This document shows, in pieces, positions 10,966 through 25,705 of a stretch of 52,669 nt of DNA. Both the position numbers and the translations under genes were made by a program. The stretch is from an uncultured Spartobacteria bacterium. GTDB lineage: Bacteria > Verrucomicrobiota > Verrucomicrobiia > Chthoniobacterales > Terrimicrobiaceae. The stretch is taken from contig CALAPX010000391.1 in assembly GCA_937888355.1 (NCBI GenBank), positions 1-52,669 of the forward strand, read 5' to 3'. The notes under the pieces are model-generated. The model made no database searches. It saw only the letters and a list, made by a program, of their open reading frames with translations, and was not told the origin of the DNA. How positions within the stretch are numbered: the first letter of the stretch is position 1; each line of letters opens with the position of its first letter.

Positions 10966-12002
10966 CAAAAGGCTCCGCGAAATCACTGGCTCGGCTATAC
11001 GACCGCTTCGTTGGAATCTTGGACAAGCTTCCAGGAGGTTTACAGAAGCCGTTACTTAAGGAACTTCAGCCTATCAGGGATCTATTCCTTGATCGCCGTG
11101 TGGCACATATCGGGTTGGTGGGTGGTAGTATCGCTAGTGTCCCTGAGCTCTTTGCGGCCATGGGCGTAAGGCCAGTTCGCGCCGGAGAATTGCTGCAGGG
11201 TTGGCGCGATTACACCTCCCTGGAAGGGAATATAATTTCGATTCTCGATGCACGTGCAAGTGCTCTGGAATCGCCCTTGGAAATCGGATTGTCTCACCGC
11301 ATTCCAGACCTCTTTCTTATTGTTCAGGATGCCGAGCCTCTTCCTGAAGATTGGAAGGAATCCATGCGCCGAGCCACAGTTGGCGGAACTTTGGTCTTGG
11401 GTCTTTGCTCGAATCCTGACTACCGACAGCGCCTTGAAGACCTTCTCTCCTATGAGCCCCTGGTTGCGACATCCGCTCCGGTTGTTCTTGAGCCCGGAAA
11501 TCCAGCCACCGCTGAATCCCTCTGCGCGGCGCTGCCGCTTCAAGCCCAGATTGAATTTGCGCAATTCACCAAGGCTCGAAGGGCGCAAGCCTATATAGCT
11601 TCGCGGTTGCTGCGATCCTTTAGTGCAATGTGCGCGATCATCGCACTGCAACCTATTCCATTTGCCGATTTGCCATTTCTTCTCTCGCTTCAGAGCCTAA
11701 TGATCGGCCTGATCATCTATACTACCGGCCGCAATGTAGGTCTGAAACTTATCGCCGAATTTCTTACTTCTCTAGGTCTCGGCGCCGCCGCCGGGCTTGC
11801 CTTTCGTGAAGCCGCCCGGATTGCAGTGCGCATTGTGCCCTTCTGGGGAAACGCAGTCTCTGGCGTTGTCGCCGGCGCGGGCACCTATGCGATTGGACGA
11901 GCAGCGATCGCATATTTTATTGATGACGCTCCGCTTGCCGAAACGCGTCGACTGTTCACAGGCCCCTGGTGCAATTCCACAACCCGGGCGATGTCGCCCT
12001 GA
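10962..12002 (+). CDS. DUF697 membrane protein with degenerate GTPase domain
   Basis: 346 residues, starting with GTG inside the bcp stop (GTGA). The C-terminal third (about 215-330) is a DUF697/YcjF-type hydrophobic domain with the ALQPIPFADLP signature and helices around 225-315. In relatives this domain follows an Era-like GTPase. Here the matching N-terminal region has GLVGGSIASV (51-60) where a P-loop GxxGxGKS should be, so the Lys and Ser/Thr are lost and nucleotide binding looks abolished. The G-domain-like strand order (ISILDARA, LFLIVQDAEPLP, TLVLGLCSNP) is still visible. I therefore read it as a pseudo-GTPase membrane protein. Its function is unknown. Confidence 0.75.
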   Translation: MTKGSAKSLARLYDRFVGILDKLPGGLQKPLLKELQPIRDLFLDRRVAHIGLVGGSIASVPELFAAMGVRPVRAGELLQGWRDYTSLEGNIISILDARASALESPLEIGLSHRIPDLFLIVQDAEPLPEDWKESMRRATVGGTLVLGLCSNPDYRQRLEDLLSYEPLVATSAPVVLEPGNPATAESLCAALPLQAQIEFAQFTKARRAQAYIASRLLRSFSAMCAIIALQPIPFADLPFLLSLQSLMIGLIIYTTGRNVGLKLIAEFLTSLGLGAAAGLAFREAARIAVRIVPFWGNAVSGVVAGAGTYAIGRAAIAYFIDDAPLAETRRLFTGPWCNSTTRAMSP

Positions 12003-12009
12003 AGAAGCC

Positions 12010-12465
12010 ATGCCTGCACCCGATCCCGCTGCGGCAGCCCAGAAGTCCGCTATCGCCGACGTTCAAGACATCTATCGTGAACTAGAAGAGCGCCCTCTGG
12101 CGCGTGACTGCATCCGACGCACTACGTGCTGTCAATTCCATCGCACGGGGAAAATCCCCCAACTTACTCGCGGCGAAGCGCTCGTTGCAGCGAAGGCCCT
12201 TAGGGCCAGCGGGCGCAAGACGCTGCCTACACGTTCAGATGGGGCGTGCCCCCTCCTCGATCCAGTCACATCGGGGTGTCTTATCTATAACGCCCGTCCT
12301 TTCGGATGCCGCACTCATTTCTGTGCCGCCGCTGGCGGCACCTACCCACGGGAGAGGGTCATTGATCTCATCCGCCGTCTTGAAGAGACGGATCAGCATC
12401 TCGGTGGCGATGGATCCCATCCTCTCAACCAGGCGATCGATGCAGCGCTTGCGACAAAGCGATGA
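12010..12465 (+). CDS. YkgJ family cysteine-cluster protein
   Basis: A 151-residue putative zinc- or iron-chelating protein. The cluster pattern is visible as TTCCQFHRTGK, then GACPLLDPVTSGCLIYNARPFGCR (quoted only by its key cysteines) and HFC, matching the CxxC ... CPxL ... GCxIYxxRPxxCRxxxC arrangement of the family. ATG 12010 follows the DUF697 stop by 7 bases. The third gene of the bcp unit may therefore be linked to redox or metal homeostasis. The biochemical role of YkgJ proteins is not established. Confidence 0.83.
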   Translation: MPAPDPAAAAQKSAIADVQDIYRELEERPLARDCIRRTTCCQFHRTGKIPQLTRGEALVAAKALRASGRKTLPTRSDGACPLLDPVTSGCLIYNARPFGCRTHFCAAAGGTYPRERVIDLIRRLEETDQHLGGDGSHPLNQAIDAALATKR

Positions 12466-12530
12466 TCCAAACCCATCAAAAAGGGGTGGAAATTTTCGCC
12501 AACCATTGTATCACTTTGCACGCTGCGATT

Positions 12531-14925
<2,395 letters not shown>

Positions 14926-16130: not shown

Positions 16131-17399
16131 CTAGTGCGCGGCTCCTGTATACTCAGCCATCCGGACATGATTGTTGCCCGACTTCGCCGCATACATGGCC
16201 TCGTCGGCTGTGCGCAGAAGTTCTTCGATCGAACCCGCATGTTTTGGAAAGATGCTGATGCCTAGCGATGCTCCGATATGAATGCTTCCGAAAGAACCGG
16301 TAAAAGGCATTTCGAACGCACTGAAAACGATTTGGCGCAGTCGAGAAATAGCTGAATCCTCATTTTCCGCAGGGGTGAGCAAGACAATCATAAACTCATC
16401 TCCGCCATAACGGGCGACGAGATCTCCATCACGGCAATGTTCATTTAATCGCGCCCCAACCATACGAAGCACTTCGTCCCCGCGGCCATGTCCAAGGCGG
16501 TCATTGATCGTCTTGAAATTGTTCAAATCTACCATTCCCAGTATCACCGCATAATGTCCGTTGGTTGCTTTCCTAGTCACCGATTGCAAGTGTGACTGGA
16601 GCAAAGAACGATTTGCTACCTCGGTAAGCGGATCCTGAGTTGATTGGGTTTCCAGAGCTTCGGCTCTTTTCTGTTCGATCCTCCAGTTGGCCCAACCGAC
16701 CCATACTACAATTGCAGAAAAAAGAAGAAATGCCGCACGCAATATCTCAGCAGTCCGTTGCTCATATTGAATAGACGATGAATAGCGAGAATCAGCCATT
16801 CGTTGCGCTTCGCTGAGCAATTCATAAAATTTGGATTTCAACCCTAAATACGAGTCAGAGCTTAACATTTCATGGGCTTGCAGACGCGCTTCAGTTGTCT
16901 GATCAAGGGTAACCTTATCCATTGCTTGAATCTCAATAGTTGTGAGTTCATCTGAGATGGTTTGCGCTTGATTCATCAGCCCCAATTCGATCGGGGTGAA
17001 TCCGTTGGATTTCATAAGCTCGAGCAGAGAGGCTTTTGATCCGGAGATGGACTTGTTATGATTAAAATCGAGTTGAAACCCCCAATAATTTGATTGGTAT
17101 TTTGCAGTCCGCGGCAGGAGTCCATTGCGGATGGCTTGAATTTCCTCGAAGGTGGTTCTGTAGGATGCGTTTCCTGTGGTAATAAATGCCTTCGACATTG
17201 TGTAAAGATCTTCAGTCGAGCGCCTTAATTCCTCCGAGAGAAAAAAAGAAGTCAACCTGTTCTCTTCATCTTTGGTTGTATTTTTAACCGCTCTAATATG
17301 CAGCTCAAACAGTAGAGCCAGTGCTGCAAGTAGTGTCAGAAATATAAAGAGAAGCGGACGTTGACGAATCTGTTTCATGAGGGAGCGACGATAGTTCAT
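16131..17399 (-). CDS. Membrane diguanylate cyclase (GGDEF)
   Basis: 422 residues, predicted to make cyclic-di-GMP from two GTP. One membrane helix (about 15-35), a roughly 185-residue periplasmic helical sensor region, a second helix (about 222-239) and a C-terminal GGDEF domain are visible. The active site RYGGDEF is intact (332-336), and the inhibitory I-site RDGD lies five residues upstream (323-326), so product feedback is expected. I chose ATG 17399 (MNYRRS); ATG 17378 is also possible. It is divergent from the exopolysaccharide operon with 85 bp between starts, so it is probably that operon's dedicated activator. No known ligand-binding family was recognised in the sensor region. Confidence 0.9.
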   Translation of the reverse strand: MNYRRSLMKQIRQRPLLFIFLTLLAALALLFELHIRAVKNTTKDEENRLTSFFLSEELRRSTEDLYTMSKAFITTGNASYRTTFEEIQAIRNGLLPRTAKYQSNYWGFQLDFNHNKSISGSKASLLELMKSNGFTPIELGLMNQAQTISDELTTIEIQAMDKVTLDQTTEARLQAHEMLSSDSYLGLKSKFYELLSEAQRMADSRYSSSIQYEQRTAEILRAAFLLFSAIVVWVGWANWRIEQKRAEALETQSTQDPLTEVANRSLLQSHLQSVTRKATNGHYAVILGMVDLNNFKTINDRLGHGRGDEVLRMVGARLNEHCRDGDLVARYGGDEFMIVLLTPAENEDSAISRLRQIVFSAFEMPFTGSFGSIHIGASLGISIFPKHAGSIEELLRTADEAMYAAKSGNNHVRMAEYTGAAH

Positions 17400-17428
17400 C
17401 CAAAGGATTTTTCTCCCGGGCCCGCAAT

Positions 17429-17440
17429 GGGTGATCACCC
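17429..17440. promoter_or_regulatory. Palindrome in the divergent EPS/diguanylate cyclase promoter region
   Basis: GGGTGATCACCC is a perfect 12-bp palindrome, extended by AT before it and CAT after it. It sits in the 85-bp gap (17400-17484) between the cyclase start and the epimerase start. Its position fits an operator serving both directions, but no regulator gene in this window can be tied to it. Confidence 0.4.
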
Positions 17441-17484
17441 CATGGCGAAGGCATTTCCAGCGAGGCAATCTTGCGGCCTATTAT

Positions 17485-18477
17485 ATGAATGTCTTAATCA
17501 CAGGCGGCGCAGGGTTCATCGGCTCACATCTGGTAGGACTGCATCTTAACAATGGTGACAGTGTTCTCGCTGTCGATGATCTCAGCACGGGGAGGCGATC
17601 CAATATCGAGCCGTTTTTTGACGCAGAGGATTTCTGCTTCGAAGTGGCTGACCTGCTCGATTGGCCGGGGCTCGGGAGAGCAGTCTCCGGAGTCGATCGC
17701 ATCTACCATCTCGCTGCGGTGGTTGGCATGTTTCGTGTTCTTGATGAGCCAGTAGAAGTGATGCGTGTGAATGTTGGTGGCACCGAGGCGATTCTGGAGG
17801 AGGTAGTCCGCTCCGGGACTAGAGCGGAGATTCTCATTGCATCAAGCTCATCAGTTTACGGGCAGACTCAAGGAAAGGAACTCGATGAGGGGTTGGATCT
17901 CGTGTTCACGCCTGAAGGGGGAGGGCTTACAGGGTATGCGCTGAGCAAGCTGACAAATGAACTCCAGGCGATCGCTTACCAGCGTGAATACGGCCTGCCA
18001 GTCGCCGTGGCTAGGCTCTTCAATACAGTCGGCCCAAGGCAAGCGGGTGATTACGGATTTGTTCTGCCCAGATTCGTTAGGCAGGCGCTTGATGGTGAGC
18101 CGCTCACAGTCTTTGGCGATGGATCACAAACTCGCTCGTTTTGTGATGTGCGGGATACCATAGAGGCGCTCGAACTCCTTGCGGGCAATAAGGCAAACGA
18201 CGGTAGGCCGGTAAATGTCGGGAATGCCCGTGAGATTTCGATCCTGGATTTGGCCGAGTTGGTTATCGAGCGTGCCGGAAGTTCCTCTGATGTTGAGTTT
18301 ATTCCCTATGAGGAGGCCTATGGTGAGAAATTCCGAACAATTGGGCAGCGAAGACCGGTTGTAGAACGTTTGAAGACAACGACAGGATTCCAGCCAAAGT
18401 GGACACTTGAGCAGACAATCGATGATCTTATTGAGCGTGAGAGAGTTGAGGCCTATTCAAGGGAGGTGCTGGTATGA
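17485..18477 (+). CDS. UDP-sugar epimerase/decarboxylase (extended SDR)
   Basis: A 330-residue enzyme, first gene of the exopolysaccharide operon. The start MNVLITGGAGFIGSH places the GGxGFIG NAD motif right at the N-terminus, which fixes ATG 17485 despite the open frame upstream and the lack of a ribosome binding site. SSSSVYG and YALSK supply the Ser and YxxxK catalytic groups, and RLFNTVGPRQ and FGDGSQTRSFCDV are typical of UDP-glucose/UDP-GlcNAc 4-epimerases and UDP-glucuronate decarboxylases. With the dehydrogenase downstream it probably makes an acidic or epimerised UDP-sugar for the GT2 synthase. Its stop overlaps the next start by 4 bases. Confidence 0.9.
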   Translation: MNVLITGGAGFIGSHLVGLHLNNGDSVLAVDDLSTGRRSNIEPFFDAEDFCFEVADLLDWPGLGRAVSGVDRIYHLAAVVGMFRVLDEPVEVMRVNVGGTEAILEEVVRSGTRAEILIASSSSVYGQTQGKELDEGLDLVFTPEGGGLTGYALSKLTNELQAIAYQREYGLPVAVARLFNTVGPRQAGDYGFVLPRFVRQALDGEPLTVFGDGSQTRSFCDVRDTIEALELLAGNKANDGRPVNVGNAREISILDLAELVIERAGSSSDVEFIPYEEAYGEKFRTIGQRRPVVERLKTTTGFQPKWTLEQTIDDLIERERVEAYSREVLV

Positions 18478-19331
18478 GCCTCAAGCCCGCATGGACGATT
18501 GGAATGTTGATTTCCCTCATGATACCCACGGGATTAAACGCTGTCGGGGAGGGGCCCATTGGAGAGATGGAAGAGGAAAATATCCGGATCATCGAGGAAT
18601 CCGACAATCTTCGCCGATGGACCGTTGTGCCGATGTTCAGTTATAGCGTATTCAACAAGGGGAGGGAAAGTTGGCAGGAGGAATCTGCTGATATCTATTA
18701 CCAGCCTACAAAGTCATTTGTGATGGGTGGTGGCATTGATATTCTTAATCGACCGCCCTCTGGAACCGATATTTTATATAGCGCCTTGGCCTCATGGTAT
18801 CCGTGGAGCATTCTCGAGGTGCACGGGGAAATTTCGCTTTGCCCGGACGCGGACTTCTCTCCAAATCAGATCTACCGTGGAGGATTCCAATACCAAGCGA
18901 TGCCCCGCCTCGGGCTGTTGTTCGATTATGATCAGCTTAATTTCACCGGCGGGGACATTTCCCAAATAAAGCCCGGGCTGAGCTATTGGTTCAATGATGC
19001 GAGCTATTTAACTCTACGCTATGTCCGCGGATGGGCATTCGGGGATCTAAATTACAACTACTACTCCGCTGCATTAAATATTGGAGATATGCCGGGTGGG
19101 GGCCGGCTCACCTTGGGGTTTGCATACGGCACGGATCCGGACATCGAGTTCGGAACAAACCTAACCAGCCTGTCAAATGCCTACATCTACACCCTCTTCT
19201 ATAATCAACCTCTCACGCGCGACTTAAATGCTTTTGCTGGAATACAATACGTATACCGGCTGAATGAAGATAACAATGCTGAACTGTACCAGCAACTAAC
19301 CCCAACCATCGGACTCGTATGGAAATTCTAA
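18474..19331 (+). CDS. YaiO family outer-membrane beta-barrel protein
   Basis: A 285-residue predicted outer-membrane protein. The signal peptide spans about residues 1-23 (cleavage near GLNA). Alternating aromatic/polar strands run through the mature part, with repeated patterns such as LTLRYVRGWAFG and AGIQYVYRL, and the last residue is Phe (LVWKF), the usual barrel-assembly signal. The architecture fits the YaiO domain, found near a GT2 gene (yaiP) in E. coli. Here it is the only outer-membrane candidate, so I infer that it is the exit channel for the polymer. The next gene starts 13 bases inside it. Confidence 0.82.
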   Translation: MSLKPAWTIGMLISLMIPTGLNAVGEGPIGEMEEENIRIIEESDNLRRWTVVPMFSYSVFNKGRESWQEESADIYYQPTKSFVMGGGIDILNRPPSGTDILYSALASWYPWSILEVHGEISLCPDADFSPNQIYRGGFQYQAMPRLGLLFDYDQLNFTGGDISQIKPGLSYWFNDASYLTLRYVRGWAFGDLNYNYYSAALNIGDMPGGGRLTLGFAYGTDPDIEFGTNLTSLSNAYIYTLFYNQPLTRDLNAFAGIQYVYRLNEDNNAELYQQLTPTIGLVWKF

Positions 19332-20416
19332 GCCCCACCATTATCAAAATAGTCATACAGGCTGCCATCGCTCTCACGTTTATCAGCCTGCTATTACTCG
19401 GGATCATCATTGCGATTCGATGGGGAACCGATCGAAAGCAGCGCATTAGCAGTGATTACCGGAAGGAGGCAAAGCTATTTGTGATGGGCTTCATCACTGG
19501 AAAGATCACGAAAGAAGAAAGTCTGGAAGTCCTTAAGGAAAACCTTAAAGAGGGGCTGGAGCTTCTTTTGGAAATCGGAAACTCTTTATCTGAGGAGGAA
19601 AGAAAGCGTGTTAGAATTCTGTGCGCCGCCTTGCCATTCGAGGAAGAGCAACTGGATTTGCTGGAGAGCAGGCACTGGGAAAACCGCCGCCGCGCCGCTG
19701 AGAGTCTTGGCTACGTGGGAGGAACGGCCTCAGTCGCTCCGCTCAAGGCGGCGTTGAGTGATGGAATCCTTATCGTGAGGGAAGCCGCCGCGAGAGCATT
19801 GGTCGCTATGGGGTGCGTTGATGCCGTTGAATCGATTGTGCTCGCGCTGGATGCCCCCGGAGAAATGGCGGAACGACGCGCCGCAGAAGTGGTCACGGTT
19901 CTTGGCGATGGAGCGGTCGATCCGCTTCTGTCCATGCTTGATCAGAAGGGTGTGAAGTACACGCCCACTAGCATAAAAATCGTGATCCGTGCCTTGGGCT
20001 CACTGCGTGCGAGTGAGGCGGTGCCGGCTCTGGTCAGGCTTCTTAAAAACAGCGAATTCACAATAAGGCTCAACAGCGTTAGGGCGCTTGGGCTGATCGG
20101 AGACGCCTCTGTTATTCCTGAAATTGCCGAACTTGCAGAGGATCTTCCATGGGAGGTGAGGAATGTCTCAGTGCAGGCACTTGGACGCTTGCAAGCCACT
20201 GAGCGAATTCCCCTGCTAGTCCGAGCTTTGGGAGATCCTTCTTGGTGGGTCAGGTTCTCGGCCGCTCAAGCGCTTTACGCATTGGGAGAACCTGGCCTCC
20301 GTGAGTTACAAAAAAGTATGTCCGCGCACTCCGACCGGTATGCGCGCGATATGAGCCGTCAAATCCTGCAGGAGCATCGCCTCCTAGAAAGAAACTCTAT
20401 TCCTTCCGCCTTATGA
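19319..20416 (+). CDS. Membrane-anchored HEAT-repeat protein
   Basis: 365 residues. A single N-terminal membrane helix (about 8-34) is followed at once by RWGTDRKQR, so the positive-inside rule puts the rest in the cytoplasm. A helical linker (about 45-110) leads to roughly seven HEAT repeats (about 116-350), visible as recurring units like RRRAAESLGYVG, VREAAARALVAMG, IRLNSVRALGLIG and VRFSAAQALYALG. It overlaps yaiO at its start and the GT2 synthase at its end (ATGA), which argues for a physical partnership with the synthase. It could be a scaffold or a receptor for cyclic-di-GMP; no known nucleotide-binding motif is seen, so that part is a guess. Confidence 0.85.
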   Translation: MEILSPTIIKIVIQAAIALTFISLLLLGIIIAIRWGTDRKQRISSDYRKEAKLFVMGFITGKITKEESLEVLKENLKEGLELLLEIGNSLSEEERKRVRILCAALPFEEEQLDLLESRHWENRRRAAESLGYVGGTASVAPLKAALSDGILIVREAAARALVAMGCVDAVESIVLALDAPGEMAERRAAEVVTVLGDGAVDPLLSMLDQKGVKYTPTSIKIVIRALGSLRASEAVPALVRLLKNSEFTIRLNSVRALGLIGDASVIPEIAELAEDLPWEVRNVSVQALGRLQATERIPLLVRALGDPSWWVRFSAAQALYALGEPGLRELQKSMSAHSDRYARDMSRQILQEHRLLERNSIPSAL

Positions 20417-21828
20417 TCACTTTCGTTTTAATCTGTGTCTGGTTCGTGCTGGCTTACTTTATTGCCCTGCATGCATTGTATTTATTCTTAATTATTATCG
20501 GTGCCCTTCAAGTGCGCCGATACCAAAAAGGAATTACTTTTGCCGAGTTTGAGCGAATTGCGGCTTCTGACCTCACAATGCCGGTATCTGTCATCATTCC
20601 TATCTTCAACGAGGAGAGCATTGCCGTGGCAACAGTCCAAAATGCCTTGGCCCTAAACTACCCGAAACATGAGGTCATCGTGGTGGATGATGGTTCAACG
20701 GACAAAACAATGGCGGAACTAGTCGAGGCGTTCCGGTTGTTCCGAGTCGAAAAGCAGGGGCAAAAACACATTCCAACCCGAGAGGTGCTTGGCTCCTATG
20801 GGTCTGTGGAACATCCGAATCTTCTTGTGGTCACAAAGGAGAACGGACGCCGCGGGGATGCAATCAATGCCGCCGTGGCCGTATCCAAGTATCCGCTTCT
20901 TTGTGTGATTGATGCCGATTGCGTGCTTGAGAGCGACGGCTTGTTGCACATGGCGCGTCCATTTTTGAGGGATTCAAAGCTCGCCGCATCGGCGGGTGTG
21001 GTGAGGCCATCAAATGGTCTGCAACTTAAGGGTGGAAGGATCGTTGGGCAGGGCCTGCCGAAGAGCCTCTTGGGGTTGAGCCAGGAAATCGAGTATGCCC
21101 GAAGCTTTCAATGGGCACGCATTGGGTTGTGCCGCCTCCAGAGCATGTTGTGCATTTCCGGCGCGTTGCTGTTGATCAAGAAGAGTGTGTTTGAGGCCGT
21201 GGGGGGCAGTTGGCCGAATGCTATCACCGATGACATTGAGTTCACAATTCGACTAAACAAGCATATCCACGACCGCCGCCGAGACCGCACCCAGCATCTT
21301 GAATTCACGCCCGATGCCGTTTGCTACACCGAGGTGCCTGAAAAGTTTCGGCAATATGCTTCCCAGAGGAACCGTTGGCAGAGAGGAACCCTTCAAGCTC
21401 TTTTGCGGAATTGGAAAATGATGCTCAATCCCCGCTACGGCATGAGCGGACTATTTGGGATGCCGTTCTTCCTGATTTTTGAAGCCTTCTCCGCAATTGT
21501 TGAGTTGTTGGCTTATATGCTTATCCCCGTAACATTGATTTTGGGCCTCGCAGGGGCTTGGGAGATCGCGCTGATGCTCTATGCCGCTTATATCACCGGA
21601 GTCTGCCTGACCCTGTCGGCGATCCTGCTTTCAGAGACCGGGCGTCTCCGCGCGGCAAGCTGGCAGGACTTCTGGAAAATGATCGCGGCGGTCTTTCTGG
21701 ACAATCTTGGATTCCACCAGTGGCACTTGATCAACCGTGTGCTTGGAACATTCCAATACCTTATCCTGCGGCGCACGGACATGGGACTGCATATGGAGCG
21801 CCTCTCCCCGAATACAGCCACGCCATGA
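20413..21828 (+). CDS. Processive membrane glycosyltransferase, family 2
   Basis: A 471-residue inner-membrane polysaccharide synthase. After N-terminal helices (about 2-33) the GT-A domain shows VDDGS (91-95), DADC (167-170), TDDIE (272-276) and QRNRW (318-322), the D,D,D,QxxRW set of processive enzymes such as PgaC, NodC and cellulose synthase. About four more helices follow (345-450). There is no PilZ domain, so cyclic-di-GMP control, if real, must act through another protein. Four-base overlaps link it to the HEAT gene before and the dehydrogenase after. The polymer is unknown; the nearby GH16 enzyme suggests beta-linkages. Confidence 0.92.
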   Translation: MITFVLICVWFVLAYFIALHALYLFLIIIGALQVRRYQKGITFAEFERIAASDLTMPVSVIIPIFNEESIAVATVQNALALNYPKHEVIVVDDGSTDKTMAELVEAFRLFRVEKQGQKHIPTREVLGSYGSVEHPNLLVVTKENGRRGDAINAAVAVSKYPLLCVIDADCVLESDGLLHMARPFLRDSKLAASAGVVRPSNGLQLKGGRIVGQGLPKSLLGLSQEIEYARSFQWARIGLCRLQSMLCISGALLLIKKSVFEAVGGSWPNAITDDIEFTIRLNKHIHDRRRDRTQHLEFTPDAVCYTEVPEKFRQYASQRNRWQRGTLQALLRNWKMMLNPRYGMSGLFGMPFFLIFEAFSAIVELLAYMLIPVTLILGLAGAWEIALMLYAAYITGVCLTLSAILLSETGRLRAASWQDFWKMIAAVFLDNLGFHQWHLINRVLGTFQYLILRRTDMGLHMERLSPNTATP

Positions 21829-23126
21829 TGCCCAAGCCTGAAGGAGCTAAATATGAAGTAGCAGTGGTCGGCCTTGGGTATGTGGGAATTCCGCTTGCCA
21901 TTGGATTTGCGACTGCAGGGTGCCGCACGCTTGGGGTAGATTCGGATGCCGAGCGCGTAGAAATACTGCAATCTGGCAAGTCGCCGCTGCCGCATTTGGG
22001 AAACGCTAAAATAGCAACAGCGCTATCGGATCGGCGCGTGAGGTTCAGTGCGGAAAAATGCGATCTCGCCGAGAGCGAGGCGATCATCATTTGTGTTCCC
22101 ACGCCGATCCGCAGTCACAATGAACCGGACTTGGGGTATGTTTTGTCCGCAGCGGGCGAAATTGCTCCATGGCTTCGGCAGGGGATGCTTGTGTGCCTAG
22201 AGTCGAGCACTTACCCGGGAACGACTGGTCAGGATTTGCGTGAAGTATTGGAGAGCATGTCCGGACTGAAGGCAGGCGAGGATTTCCATCTTGCCTTCTC
22301 ACCCGAACGCGAAGATCCAGGAAACAACGGGAGTGTGCTGCACAAGATGCCTAAAGTCATCGGAGGCTACACGGAGGGGTGTCTTTCCCGCGCGCTAGAA
22401 CTGTATGAGCGTGTTGTGGAGCATCCTGTTCCTGTGAGCAGTTGCGAAACAGCCGAAGCGGTAAAGCTCACGGAGAACATTTTTCGGTTTGTTAATATCG
22501 CCCTTATTAACGAATTGAAGCGCATTTATTCGGCCATGGACATCGATATCTGGGAAGTAGTCGAGGCAGCAAAGACAAAGCCTTTTGGCTATATGCCTTT
22601 CTATCCCGGCGTTGGGGTCGGGGGTCACTGCATTCCAGTCGATCCGTTCTACCTCACATGGAAGGCGCGCGAATATAACCTCGACACCCGATTCATCGAA
22701 TTGGCCGGGCAGATCAACCGCTCAATGCCATACTATGCGGTGAACCACCTGCTCGAGGCTCTGAATGCCCGAAAGCGGTCGCTCCGGGGGAGTAGGATTC
22801 TTGTTCTCGGGGTGGCCTACAAGCCCGGGATTTCAGACGACCGCGAATCTCCATCGTATCGAGTCATGGATCTTCTGAGGCAAAAAGGGGCGGAAGTCGG
22901 ATATTATGATCCGTATGTTCCAGAAATCGATGCTCCAGGAACACCCTGGCATGCTCTTCGGACACTGGAATGGAACCGCGGGAACCTTGCCGCATTTGAT
23001 GCAGCAATCGTGTGCACGGCACACAGAGAAATTGACTACAAGGAACTGGCGGACGTGGTGCCGCTGGTGGTCGATGCCTGTAATGCAGTGCCAAAAAACC
23101 GTGTGGCGTGTGTCGTCCCTGCATGA
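21825..23126 (+). CDS. UDP-(N-acetyl)hexosamine/glucose 6-dehydrogenase
   Basis: A 433-residue enzyme that oxidises a UDP-hexose or UDP-N-acetylhexosamine to the uronic acid with NAD+. The Rossmann motif VGLGYVGIPLA is at 15-25 and the catalytic cysteine is C269 in GVGGHCIPVDPFYLTWKA. That form is closer to the WbpA/WbpO/TviB (HexNAc) branch than to UDP-glucose dehydrogenases. LGVAYKPGISDDRESPS is the C-terminal signature. The start is ATG 21825 (overlapping the GT2 stop) or the ATG at 21828. Paired with the epimerase, it predicts a uronic acid such as a HexNAcA in the polymer; the exact sugar is inference. Confidence 0.92.
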   Translation: MMPKPEGAKYEVAVVGLGYVGIPLAIGFATAGCRTLGVDSDAERVEILQSGKSPLPHLGNAKIATALSDRRVRFSAEKCDLAESEAIIICVPTPIRSHNEPDLGYVLSAAGEIAPWLRQGMLVCLESSTYPGTTGQDLREVLESMSGLKAGEDFHLAFSPEREDPGNNGSVLHKMPKVIGGYTEGCLSRALELYERVVEHPVPVSSCETAEAVKLTENIFRFVNIALINELKRIYSAMDIDIWEVVEAAKTKPFGYMPFYPGVGVGGHCIPVDPFYLTWKAREYNLDTRFIELAGQINRSMPYYAVNHLLEALNARKRSLRGSRILVLGVAYKPGISDDRESPSYRVMDLLRQKGAEVGYYDPYVPEIDAPGTPWHALRTLEWNRGNLAAFDAAIVCTAHREIDYKELADVVPLVVDACNAVPKNRVACVVPA

Positions 23127-23141
23127 CTCTTCGATGTTCTC

Positions 23142-23903
23142 ATGGGATTGCTTCTTCTCTCCACGATTCTTGCCTTTGGGGGGACTGTTTCTGGGGAGGG
23201 TGTATACGTTGAGGAGTTCGACTCGCCTGGAAAACCTCAAGCTCCCGTTGGGATGGAGTGGAGCAGGGTGACGGAGTTATATTTTCCTGTCTCGTGGGAC
23301 GAGATGGTGCCGGGAGACGGATATGCATATCTGAAAGCAGAACGGGCGATTTTCGATAATGGCGTGAGCCGGGGGAAGGGTCCGTTTCAAACGCTCTCGA
23401 TCGGACCAGTAGAAGCGGGGAGCCGACTTTCCATACGGGCGAAAAACACCGCTGTTCCAGGTCTGGTTGGGCTGTTTTTTACCTATAACGAGCAAGGAAC
23501 ATTTGACGAAATCGATATTGAGATTGTCGCATCTGACAGGACGGTGCGCCCTGCCGGTCAAGGAGGGAATTGGACAGATGCGCGATTTAACACATGGGCC
23601 GAAGCTGATCTAAATACACTGCGGCCCGGAAACATTAAAAAATCCCCCTTACGCAACGCGGCAGGGATCAAGGTATCGCACCGTGACGGCAAGTTCCATG
23701 TGTACACTCTCGAATGGAAGCCAGATTCGGTACGATTTCTGGTTGATGGGGTGGAGCAGTCCAGCACACGACAGTTTGTGCCAAAACGACCAGCGACCTT
23801 GATTTTTGGTTTTCGTCACATGCCATGGGCGGGAGAACCGGACTGGGATGGCTATCAAACAATGCAGGTCGATTGGGTGAAAATCGAAGCGTTATCTCCA
23901 TGA
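23142..23903 (+). CDS. Secreted glycoside hydrolase family 16 glycanase
   Basis: 253 residues with a signal peptide (about 1-18). The jelly-roll active strand reads FDEIDIEIV, giving nucleophile E123, D125 and acid/base E127. The bulge-less ExDxE form is shared with lichenases and differs from the laminarinase ExDxxE form. GH16 enzymes cut beta-1,3 or beta-1,4 glucans and galactans; within synthesis operons (for example ExoK in rhizobia) they set polymer length. It lies 15 bases after the dehydrogenase and its stop overlaps the next gene. It should act in the periplasm or outside the cell. Confidence 0.9.
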   Translation: MGLLLLSTILAFGGTVSGEGVYVEEFDSPGKPQAPVGMEWSRVTELYFPVSWDEMVPGDGYAYLKAERAIFDNGVSRGKGPFQTLSIGPVEAGSRLSIRAKNTAVPGLVGLFFTYNEQGTFDEIDIEIVASDRTVRPAGQGGNWTDARFNTWAEADLNTLRPGNIKKSPLRNAAGIKVSHRDGKFHVYTLEWKPDSVRFLVDGVEQSSTRQFVPKRPATLIFGFRHMPWAGEPDWDGYQTMQVDWVKIEALSP

Positions 23904-25705
23904 TTGAGCATATCGAAATCTTATCTGAAGCATTGCCTCTAAATGGGATCGATTCCGGATTCCGAAACATGCATGACCGGGATTTTCAAAGGGCATGCCT
24001 TGATGCTGTGAAGGACGTGCTAGGGAAAGTGCTTAGGATCCATTCGCCCTCAATGGGTCTCCTAAGCGCAAAAGTTGATTATCTTAGTGACGGGTATGCC
24101 GTGGAAGAGGTCGAATTACCCGGCGGGATCCCACTGATGGGAAGGAAAGCGTGGAGTAAAGTCACGGGTGGACTATTGGAGCCAGACACCTTTGAGGTGA
24201 TGGAAAATCAAGGCTACCGCTACGCTGGGGTTGTGCTCGTGTTTCAAGGGCGGGAGTTGATGCGGATCAGCTTTCTGCTAGAGGCTCCCGGTGCCGATGT
24301 GGAGCGTTTTAATGATTTGGTTTCGACCTGCGCAATCATGTCTGCGCAAGCGGTGCGCTTGGAAGAGCTGCGCTACCTTAGCAGGCATGACGCATTGACG
24401 GGGCTTGCGAACAGAACGTTATTTCTCGCAAGAATCGCATCTGAGATTCAAACCCTTCAGAGCGGGCAAGGAGGCGCTTACATTTTTGAAATTCGCCTCG
24501 CCTGCCTGGATTTAGTGAATGACAACTTTGGCCTGCATGCGGGGGATGAGTTGATTCTGGAGGCCGCGCGGCGATTAAGTGCGCTGAATGGAGGCCGGGC
24601 ATTTGTCGCAAGGGTGGGCGGAAGCAAATTCATGCTCCTCTTGAGCCATGAGGGCCCCGAAAATCTCGCCTTCCTTATGCGTGACGTCGAGGGTGCCCTT
24701 GAACATCCAGTGACAATCGAGGGGCAGGGTATTCAAATGACATTCGATATCGGGTGCGTGGCGATTGATGACCCGCAGTTGCACCCTGTTGAGGTGCTTC
24801 AACGCGCAGAAATGGCGGTTAGCGATGCGCAAAGCCGCTCTGTTTTGCTCCAACAGAAGACATATATTTACAAAGATACATTTTTCGAGACGAAGAGGCA
24901 AAACAGCCGCCTGAACTTATTGGTCCGTCAGGCGTACAGCGAAAAAAGATTTTTCCTGCTCTTCCAGCCGTTGGTTGATTTACGGAAAACCACCATGATC
25001 GGGTGCGAGGCATTATTACGGATGCTTGACCCGAGTGGTCAGACAATCGAGGCGGCACGGTTCATGCCCGCAGTGGAGCGTATCCGCTACGAGTCCACTT
25101 TGGACAAGTGGGTATTTGAGGAAATCATGCGTTTATACGGGAGTGATAAGTTTTTGAGGCAGCGGCTGAAGGCCGGGGGTTTCAAGATGGCGATGAATTG
25201 CGATCCTAAACTCCTTTCCCAAAATGGGCTTTCCAAGGAATGGTTATCCCGGTTCGAGCAAGCGGAGTTTGACCCCAAGGGGTTTTCTTTGGAGATGGTG
25301 GAACATCCAATTCTTTTTGAGAGTAGCGTGCTTATGCAAAATCTCCGGACTCTGCGCCGGGAGGGGGTACAAATTGCAGTGGATGATTTCGGATCTGGTC
25401 ACAGTAACCTTCGCTATTTGGCTGGTCTCCCGATCGATCTTGTGAAGCTTGATCGTGGGTTCTTGAAAGGTGTTGGAGACAATAGATCGCGCGAGGCCCG
25501 TCTGCTGAAGGCGATCCTCGATTTATGTGCAGAGCTTGGCTATGAATCGCTTTGTGAAGGGGTAGAGACTCAGGCGCATGCCGATTTTCTTAAAAGCATC
25601 GATTGCTCCAGTGCGCAGGGCTATTTCTACGGGAAGCCGATGCCTTTGCCTGAGGTGCTTGCGCTTGCCGACAGATACGATGCTGCACCCAAGGCGCTAG
25701 GGTAA
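23900..25705 (+). CDS. GGDEF-EAL protein, predicted cyclic-di-GMP phosphodiesterase
   Basis: 601 residues, start ATG 23900 overlapping the GH16 stop. A soluble N-terminal GAF-like sensor region (about 25-155) is followed by a GGDEF domain whose active site is degenerate (GGSKF, 240-244), so no cyclase activity is expected; such domains often bind GTP as a regulator. The EAL domain keeps its catalytic set: CEALLR (369-374), N433, EMVE (465-468), DDFGSG (495-500), KLD (516-518), EGVE (553-556) and QGY (573-575). It therefore probably degrades cyclic-di-GMP. As last gene of the operon it would oppose the divergent diguanylate cyclase. Confidence 0.9.
   Translation: MIEHIEILSEALPLNGIDSGFRNMHDRDFQRACLDAVKDVLGKVLRIHSPSMGLLSAKVDYLSDGYAVEEVELPGGIPLMGRKAWSKVTGGLLEPDTFEVMENQGYRYAGVVLVFQGRELMRISFLLEAPGADVERFNDLVSTCAIMSAQAVRLEELRYLSRHDALTGLANRTLFLARIASEIQTLQSGQGGAYIFEIRLACLDLVNDNFGLHAGDELILEAARRLSALNGGRAFVARVGGSKFMLLLSHEGPENLAFLMRDVEGALEHPVTIEGQGIQMTFDIGCVAIDDPQLHPVEVLQRAEMAVSDAQSRSVLLQQKTYIYKDTFFETKRQNSRLNLLVRQAYSEKRFFLLFQPLVDLRKTTMIGCEALLRMLDPSGQTIEAARFMPAVERIRYESTLDKWVFEEIMRLYGSDKFLRQRLKAGGFKMAMNCDPKLLSQNGLSKEWLSRFEQAEFDPKGFSLEMVEHPILFESSVLMQNLRTLRREGVQIAVDDFGSGHSNLRYLAGLPIDLVKLDRGFLKGVGDNRSREARLLKAILDLCAELGYESLCEGVETQAHADFLKSIDCSSAQGYFYGKPMPLPEVLALADRYDAAPKALG

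Follow-up and report, generated by a model that had tools for sequence, protein, structure and literature searches.

In an uncultured Spartobacteria bacterium, whose DNA is that of a Terrimicrobiaceae-like Verrucomicrobiota MAG, we have identified an operon whose products very probably synthesize a surface polysaccharide and carry it out of the cell. The synthase at its center is of a kind seen next to a membrane-anchored HEAT-repeat protein in many bacterial phyla and also in archaea. In our favored reading, to which we give a probability of about 0.6, the operon encodes an unnamed synthase-dependent exopolysaccharide machine, in which a HEAT-repeat protein and a GT2 synthase would constitute the core, a YaiO barrel would serve as the exit, and cyclic-di-GMP would be an input particular to the clade. 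All eight genes were found in the window (i.e., the whole stretch of 52,669 nucleotides analyzed here) at the places and in the order that an earlier note on this DNA had given (Table 1). The spacing described there, overlaps of 4–13 bases and a 15-base gap, was also reproduced; namely, the junctions SDR/YaiO (18474–18477), HEAT/GT2, GT2/dehydrogenase, and GH16/GGDEF-EAL (with ATG at 23900) overlap by 4 nt and YaiO/HEAT by 13 nt, and a gap of 15 nt lies between the dehydrogenase and GH16 genes. The reading frame of the divergent cyclase is open to a TTG at 17468, and an internal ATG at 17402 is probably its start, leaving ~82 bp as the divergent promoter region. Because the five core genes, SDR-YaiO-HEAT-GT2-UDP-sugar dehydrogenase, are collinear in all 11 related loci (38–87% identity; one of them, L012, has a truncated SDR with only its last 26 residues on the contig), the gene order in the window is not a product of chance. 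An Rfam scan of the window gave no GEMM riboswitch at the gathering threshold, and its lone match was a tRNA at 12531–12602.

Table 1. Features of the operon and its divergent neighbor in the window
Feature	Position	Strand	Basis
Divergent membrane-sensor diguanylate cyclase	16131..17402	-	two hydrophobic segments; GGDEF with RxxD I-site
Divergent intergenic stretch, presumed promoter region in both directions	17403..17484	.	sequence layout
Extended SDR nucleotide-sugar enzyme	17485..18477	+	motifs SSSSVYG, YALSK
YaiO-family outer-membrane beta-barrel	18474..19331	+	14 predicted strands, TPR-less
Membrane-anchored HEAT-repeat protein	19319..20416	+	N-terminal hydrophobic segment, then predicted alpha-solenoid
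Processive-type GT2 synthase, HEAT-partnered subfamily	20413..21828	+	motifs and profile scores
Nucleotide-sugar 6-dehydrogenase, UDP-HexNAc type	21825..23126	+	sequence GVGGHCIPVDPFYLTW
Secreted GH16 glycoside hydrolase	23142..23903	+	catalytic motif EIDIE
GGDEF (degenerate, GGSKF)-EAL, predicted cyclic-di-GMP phosphodiesterase	23900..25705	+	motifs and profile matches

The conserved unit of this locus is the pair of HEAT and GT2. The GT2 protein (PF13641, 72 bits) contains the motifs DAD, TDD, and QRNRW and hence has the signature of a processive inner-membrane synthase (QxxRW, DxD, ED/DD); its profile matches in the PDB include chondroitin, hyaluronan, and cellulose synthases. The HEAT protein (PF13646, 108 bits) starts with a long helix (6–59) carrying one hydrophobic segment (15–33), which is followed by an alpha-solenoid predicted to be cytoplasmic, and a fold search hit designed alpha-Rep proteins and generic HEAT solenoids but nothing else. 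We then defined a HEAT-partnered GT2 subfamily by a score of >300 bits on the A1 model together with an adjoining membrane HEAT gene; the window pair belongs to it. Among 73 loci of this subfamily, mainly from five bacterial groups, 69 have a HEAT gene that directly precedes GT2 and shares its strand, and the N-terminal hydrophobic segment is present in all but one of these 69 upstream proteins (68/69). Indeed, a HEAT gene lies within 300 bp of 52/54 subfamily GT2 genes versus none of 51 other GT2 genes. The distance matrices of HEAT and GT2 were also correlated (r = 0.69; the best of 500 permutations gave 0.09), a correlation that partly reflects shared species history. This HEAT-partnered type of machine was found in 2–13% of the sampled genomes across five bacterial groups, and the pair is present at three haloarchaeal and two Gram-positive plasmid loci. 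Among the proteins encoded nearby at other subfamily loci are polysaccharide deacetylases, sulfatase/LTA-synthase-like proteins, CotH, and DUF4838 (annotation of the c4 neighbors gave no catalytic family and a weak TPR in one). The co-occurrence of HEAT, YaiO, and GT2 genes, which had been set beforehand as a point on which the proposal would stand or fall, is conserved in other genomes. The GT2 protein would polymerize a UDP-sugar at the inner membrane and itself provide the transmembrane channel by which the chain crosses, and the HEAT protein, anchored by the single N-terminal helix, would contact GT2 as its partner and regulatory platform.

In one survey, five synthase-dependent polysaccharides are counted as characterized, namely cellulose, acetylated cellulose, PNAG, alginate, and Pel (PMC7112194). 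The window shares with those systems an inner-membrane GT2, an outer-membrane barrel, a polysaccharide-acting enzyme, the cyclic-di-GMP enzymes and, in many of its relatives, TPR (PMC7112194). Unlike them, it has a HEAT partner, a separate GT2 subfamily, and a YaiO-type 14-strand barrel, and neither a PilZ/GIL receptor nor a co-polymerase was found in the window. The Nfr system of E. coli (NfrB-NfrA-YbcH), which is locally controlled through cyclic-di-GMP by the dedicated cyclase DgcJ, likewise combines a GT2 synthase, an outer-membrane barrel protein, and a local cyclase, but NfrB has its own MshEN receptor domain and no HEAT partner (PMC8669469), whereas the window GT2 and HEAT have no match to MshEN. 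Membership in Nfr was rejected with the absence of a C-terminal MshEN (PF05157) from the window GT2.

It is nonetheless to be considered that the locus is a variant of a known system (PNAG, cellulose, Nfr, or E. coli YaiO-YaiP), given that the best NCBIfam match of GT2 is PgaC/IcaA and that YaiO is shared with E. coli. The scores make this very improbable: GT2 gave 119.6 bits on the PgaC model TIGR03937, far under its cut-off of 422.3, and 48.5 bits on the CelA model TIGR03030 with a cut-off of 699. No PilZ, BcsB, or MshEN match and no deacetylase were found among the eight window proteins, so that the absence of PilZ and a BcsB-like subunit held as the earlier note had described. The E. coli cluster yaiO-yaiX-yaiP-yaiS also places a YaiO barrel near a GT2 gene, but it has no annotated HEAT gene, encodes a deacetylase, YaiS, and has yaiX broken by IS2; YaiP scored 61 bits on our subfamily model versus at least 398 for the members and hence belongs to a different GT2 subfamily. 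E. coli thus has the yaiP-yaiO association but not the full set, as previously noted. To our knowledge, HEAT proteins are not part of PNAG, cellulose, Nfr, E. coli YaiO-YaiP, or any other named systems. A likeness is also seen in a plasmid of Legionella adelaidensis, where dehydrogenase, SDR, YaiO, HEAT, and GT2 genes are collinear and GGDEF/EAL signals are present, though ~7 kb off; it differs in a GT2 of only ~31% identity, an extra SDR and hydrolase, and no annotated GH16. No Sinorhizobium record was among the 40 plasmid matches listed. Also, nothing relevant to YaiO, HEAT, and GT2 together was found in the open-access literature, a coverage outside which subscription papers and most preprints fall, and neither there nor in NCBIfam was the set found as a named system, in line with the earlier claim. 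We therefore regard the locus as an unnamed variant of synthase-dependent polysaccharide secretion, in a comparison that leaves the sequences of Xanthomonas XagABCD and S. meliloti uxs outside. As for the proposal of a distinct class, the HEAT-partnered GT2 does stand outside the PNAG, cellulose, Nfr, and YaiP families, but cyclic-di-GMP and the lack of TPR fail as traits of the class.

Two enzymes would supply the precursor. The SDR (PF01370, 166 bits) has a UDP-glucuronate decarboxylase (4lk3) as its best solved relative, which would make it a UDP-xylose synthase; however, the window SDR has Ser at what we take to be the position of the catalytic Glu, and it is for this reason probably a UDP-sugar 4-epimerase. 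The dehydrogenase (TIGR03026, 392 bits) belongs to the family expected of a UDP-sugar dehydrogenase but can be assigned more narrowly, as UDP-HexNAc dehydrogenases are closer in sequence than UDP-glucose dehydrogenase. The two enzymes would produce an acidic UDP-sugar, probably UDP-N-acetylhexosaminuronate or its 4-epimer. The GH16 protein (PF00722), which retains EIDIE and is kept in 7/11 related loci, would trim or release the polymer.

The window YaiO scored 55.6 bits on TIGR04390 (cut-off, 32), had no match in Pfam, and is predicted to form 14 strands without TPR; the polymer would leave the cell through this barrel. Generic porins were nearest in the fold search, with OmpG giving the best TM. 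The small size of the barrel (14 strands) and the ordinary porins as its nearest folds count against the favored reading. A tblastn search of YaiO against plasmids gave no match. A YaiO/TPR barrel is encoded within four genes in 58/68 subfamily loci; TIGR04390 was matched by 46 and TPR models by 36 of 50 YaiO-type neighbors, and sister verrucomicrobial YaiO proteins have an N-terminal stretch that, judged by eye, is TPR-like. The lack of a TPR scaffold, previously taken as a trait of the system, does not apply to it; rather, TPR appears from these sequences to have been lost in the window clade.

Alternatively, the GT2 product might stay anchored to the cell as a capsule- or teichoic-like polymer or a glycoconjugate, with YaiO as an accessory barrel and not the exit pore. 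An LTA-synthase/sulfatase protein adjoins GT2 in several Bacteroidia loci and is fused to it in two (L141 is confirmed by Pfam). Furthermore, none of the five plasmid loci from archaea (three) and Gram-positive bacteria (two) gave a YaiO gene (the Paenibacillus record is unannotated). We nevertheless consider an anchored product unlikely: neither the window nor its relatives showed a sulfatase gene next to the cassette, the linked YaiO is often a TPR-plus-barrel protein like known exporters, and GH16 suggests a trimmed polymer.

In terms of cyclic-di-GMP, the GGDEF motif of the divergent cyclase (GGDEF, 144 bits) was confirmed to be intact, and its I-site reads RDGD. The last gene (EAL, 184 bits; GGDEF, 86 bits) has a degenerate GGSKF, but its EALLR, DDFGSG, VKLD, and EGVE motifs are intact, and both directions of cyclic-di-GMP turnover, as proposed earlier, are accordingly predicted at the sequence level. 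What the earlier note missed is that these flanking enzymes hold all the GGDEF (two) and EAL (one) domains detected in the genome, which is 90.8% complete and could thus be missing further GGDEF, EAL, or PilZ genes. GGDEF/EAL genes flank 7/11 Verrucomicrobiota loci but are absent from the 54 non-verrucomicrobial subfamily loci, many of which have a stand-alone response regulator. Given such core cassettes without cyclic-di-GMP genes in relatives and other phyla, cyclic-di-GMP is a clade trait and not intrinsic to the machine; its use to define a class of cassettes, as first suggested, is ruled out.

It is possible, albeit doubtful, that HEAT and GT2 form a synthase core and the cyclic-di-GMP genes are mere neighbors acting on other targets such as MshEN pilus/type II secretion ATPases. 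Three MshEN matches are present in the genome, and Rubritalea and a Prosthecobacter-labeled MAG carry the core cassette with no GGDEF match in their genomes. However, the RLGxxL motif that is usual for MshEN is missing from the one domain read over its full length (L182), and genomes without GGDEF matches still encode MshEN proteins. Also, all 15 GGDEF domains are at the cassette across the six related genomes whose contigs reach far enough to judge their placement. We thus favor a dedicated cyclic-di-GMP circuit as the input in the window clade, with the divergent cyclase turning the machine on and the EAL enzyme turning it off. Since the genome gave no PilZ match, any receptor would have to be of a new kind or lie concealed within the client, and the HEAT or GT2 protein itself would be the most likely one to bind cyclic-di-GMP.

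As a tentative extension, the membrane HEAT protein might be a general regulatory subunit of GT2 in bacteria and archaea, receiving a phospho-receiver input in most lineages but cyclic-di-GMP directly in Chthoniobacterales, where HEAT (or its GT2) could be a cyclic-di-GMP receptor of a new class, acting in the sole circuit of this kind in the cell. In conclusion, the locus points to a further type of machine with a fixed HEAT partner, beyond the five characterized polysaccharides (PMC7112194), and its verrucomicrobial version is an unusually clean minimal cyclic-di-GMP circuit, with one detected cyclase, one detected phosphodiesterase, and one apparent client.

Re-measurement of the window sequence reproduced the positions and overlaps that the earlier note had described for a seven-gene operon (SDR, YaiO, membrane-anchored HEAT-repeat protein (HEAT), GT2, nucleotide-sugar dehydrogenase, GH16 and GGDEF-EAL) and a divergent GGDEF cyclase, and its family calls were upheld for all eight genes; YaiO was assigned by TIGR04390 only, with no match in a Pfam scan of this protein. 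GT2 (DAD, TDD and QRNRW) and GH16 (EIDIE) retain their catalytic motifs, and the divergent cyclase indeed possesses both GGDEF and an I-site (RDGD), as had been claimed. We predict phosphodiesterase activity for the GGDEF-EAL protein, because its EAL motifs are intact (EALLR, DDFGSG, VKLD and EGVE) and its GGDEF reads GGSKF. For the dehydrogenase, which carries GVGGHCIPVDPFYLTW, UDP-ManNAc/TviB-type models outscored UDP-glucose models, and SSSSVYG in SDR, which we read as its active site, argues for a 4-epimerase. Our best guess for the product is an acidic amino-sugar polymer. The window also has a tRNA gene (Rfam, 71 bits), the only RNA family reaching the gathering threshold.

Coordinates of the cassette and of other features discussed in the text
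Feature	Sequence	Position	Strand
Seven-gene operon	window	17485-25705	+
Divergent cyclase (probable start, 17402)	window	16131..17402	-
tRNA gene	window	12531-12602	
GT2 fused with sulfatase/LTA-synthase-like domain	L141	3985-7419	
Dehydrogenase, two pieces joining at 12414	L010 (Rubritalea profundi)	11413-12710	

The contig belongs to a 2.6-Mb verrucomicrobial MAG (completeness, 90.8%), and the closest relative, a Terrimicrobiaceae MAG, has the same eight genes with GT2 87% identical. Among 11 related loci, ten bear verrucomicrobial labels, Rubritalea profundi and a MAG labelled Prosthecobacter among them, and the eleventh comes from a MAG labelled Proteobacteria (L009, WB4_3_0938), which has a Spartobacteria-like locus and is probably mislabelled. 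The order SDR-YaiO-HEAT-GT2-dehydrogenase is identical in 11/11, with just the SDR end on the contig of L012, and GH16 and the GGDEF-EAL protein are each present in 7/11. The Rubritalea dehydrogenase aligns as two pieces, as from a frameshift, by either sequencing error or decay.

The pairing of HEAT with GT2 extends well beyond these loci. HEAT is immediately upstream of GT2 on the same strand in 69 of the 73 GT2 loci, the four exceptions being a contig edge, L163 (a convergent pair), L171 (an extra gene between) and L135, where a divergent HEAT-like segment opens a sulfatase-domain protein in which Pfam detects the sulfatase only. GT2 profile scores were bimodal (members, at least 398 bits; non-members, at most 178 bits), and the co-occurrence that the earlier note had proposed to check was borne out for HEAT and GT2: HEAT lies within 300 bp of 52/54 subfamily GT2 genes versus 0/51 non-subfamily GT2 genes from loci of the same search or the same neighbourhoods. 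HEAT and GT2 distance matrices correlate at 0.69, as expected for co-inherited partners but also for shared species history. A hydrophobic N-terminal segment is found in 68/69 HEAT partners, and the AlphaFold model of the window HEAT (mean pLDDT, 90.9) has a single long N-terminal helix followed by a solenoid, which would be cytoplasmic because positive residues follow the hydrophobic segment. Several Bacteroidia loci carry a CotH-kinase-like gene next to HEAT or slightly upstream, and Planococcus has one in the vicinity of HEAT (L129, L134, L136, L138 and L176). In L141, a sulfatase/LTA-synthase-like domain is fused to the C terminus of a subfamily GT2 (Pfam-confirmed), and a similar fusion in L150 (1134 aa) was judged by length and similarity; these fusions and the L135 protein could reveal polymer decoration.

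In a survey with the GT2 profile (E ≤ 1e-60), the counts are lower bounds because just the best 6-16 candidates were scored per genome; subfamily GT2 was found in at least 4/195 genomes of Verrucomicrobiota, 4/240 and 31/247 in the classes of a Rhizobiales genome and a Flavobacterium, 12/229 in the class of a Marinobacter, and 5/99 in the phylum of a Desulfofustis. The pair also occurs on plasmids of Mesorhizobium, Erythrobacter, Emticicia, Legionella, Deinococcus, Bacteroides, Devosia, Paenibacillus (known from ORFs only, in a record without annotation), Planococcus and three haloarchaea. The Legionella adelaidensis plasmid (dehydrogenase, SDR, YaiO, HEAT, GT2, SDR) has the nearest non-verrucomicrobial gene set seen. 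On the haloarchaeal plasmids (L054, L174 and L175), a response regulator, HEAT and GT2 are collinear, and the L175 cassette adjoins glmS and a sugar nucleotidyltransferase.

A YaiO/TPR protein is encoded within four genes in 58/68 loci. The supposed absence of a TPR scaffold holds for the window YaiO but not generally: TPR is apparently kept, by eye, in the sister clade L003-L009, and among 50 scanned YaiO-type neighbours, 46 match TIGR04390 and 36 also TPR models. The window YaiO is modelled with 14 strands (barrel pLDDT mostly about 90) and resembles OmpG in a fold search (TM about 0.6-0.7). No YaiO was seen in haloarchaeal and Gram-positive HEAT-GT2 loci, which is what a role of YaiO as the outer-membrane step would predict.

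A whole-genome search of the 90.8%-complete MAG found the GGDEF domain twice and the EAL domain once, in every case inside the cassette, and no PilZ. When contig positions were matched by hand, 15/15 GGDEF domains across six genomes (the window's and those of L002, L004, L005, L007 and L008) were at the cassette, as were 1/3 in the L009 genome and the sole above-cut-off domain in that of L012; GGDEF matches in the L003 and L006 genomes, whose cassettes lie on short contigs (9 and 14 kb), are on other contigs, and none was found in the Rubritalea genome and the Prosthecobacter-labelled MAG. MshEN was found in ATPases, but L182, the one of several copies in the window's genome examined over its full length, is without the usual RLGxxL motif. 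Cyclic-di-GMP does not, however, characterize the cassette as the earlier note had proposed, since in 54 loci outside the related clade the cassette carries no GGDEF/EAL genes. A stand-alone response regulator is within four genes in at least 33/58 loci outside the related clade, and the simplest model would be a HEAT-GT2 synthase with an interchangeable input.

One survey covers five synthase-dependent polymers (PMC7112194), and a further cyclic-di-GMP-controlled synthase is Nfr (PMC8669469), in which, as distinct from the window cassette, MshEN is a feature of the synthase. Among the matches listed, open-access papers mentioning YaiO named no exopolysaccharide system in titles or abstracts, a search of open-access papers for HEAT with glycosyltransferase and polysaccharide turned up no such gene set, and neither the window GT2 nor HEAT reached any NCBIfam model cut-off. 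Given this absence from the literature and NCBIfam searched, we judge the cassette to be a new variant of synthase-dependent secretion, of interest for its HEAT partner and its missing cyclic-di-GMP receptor.
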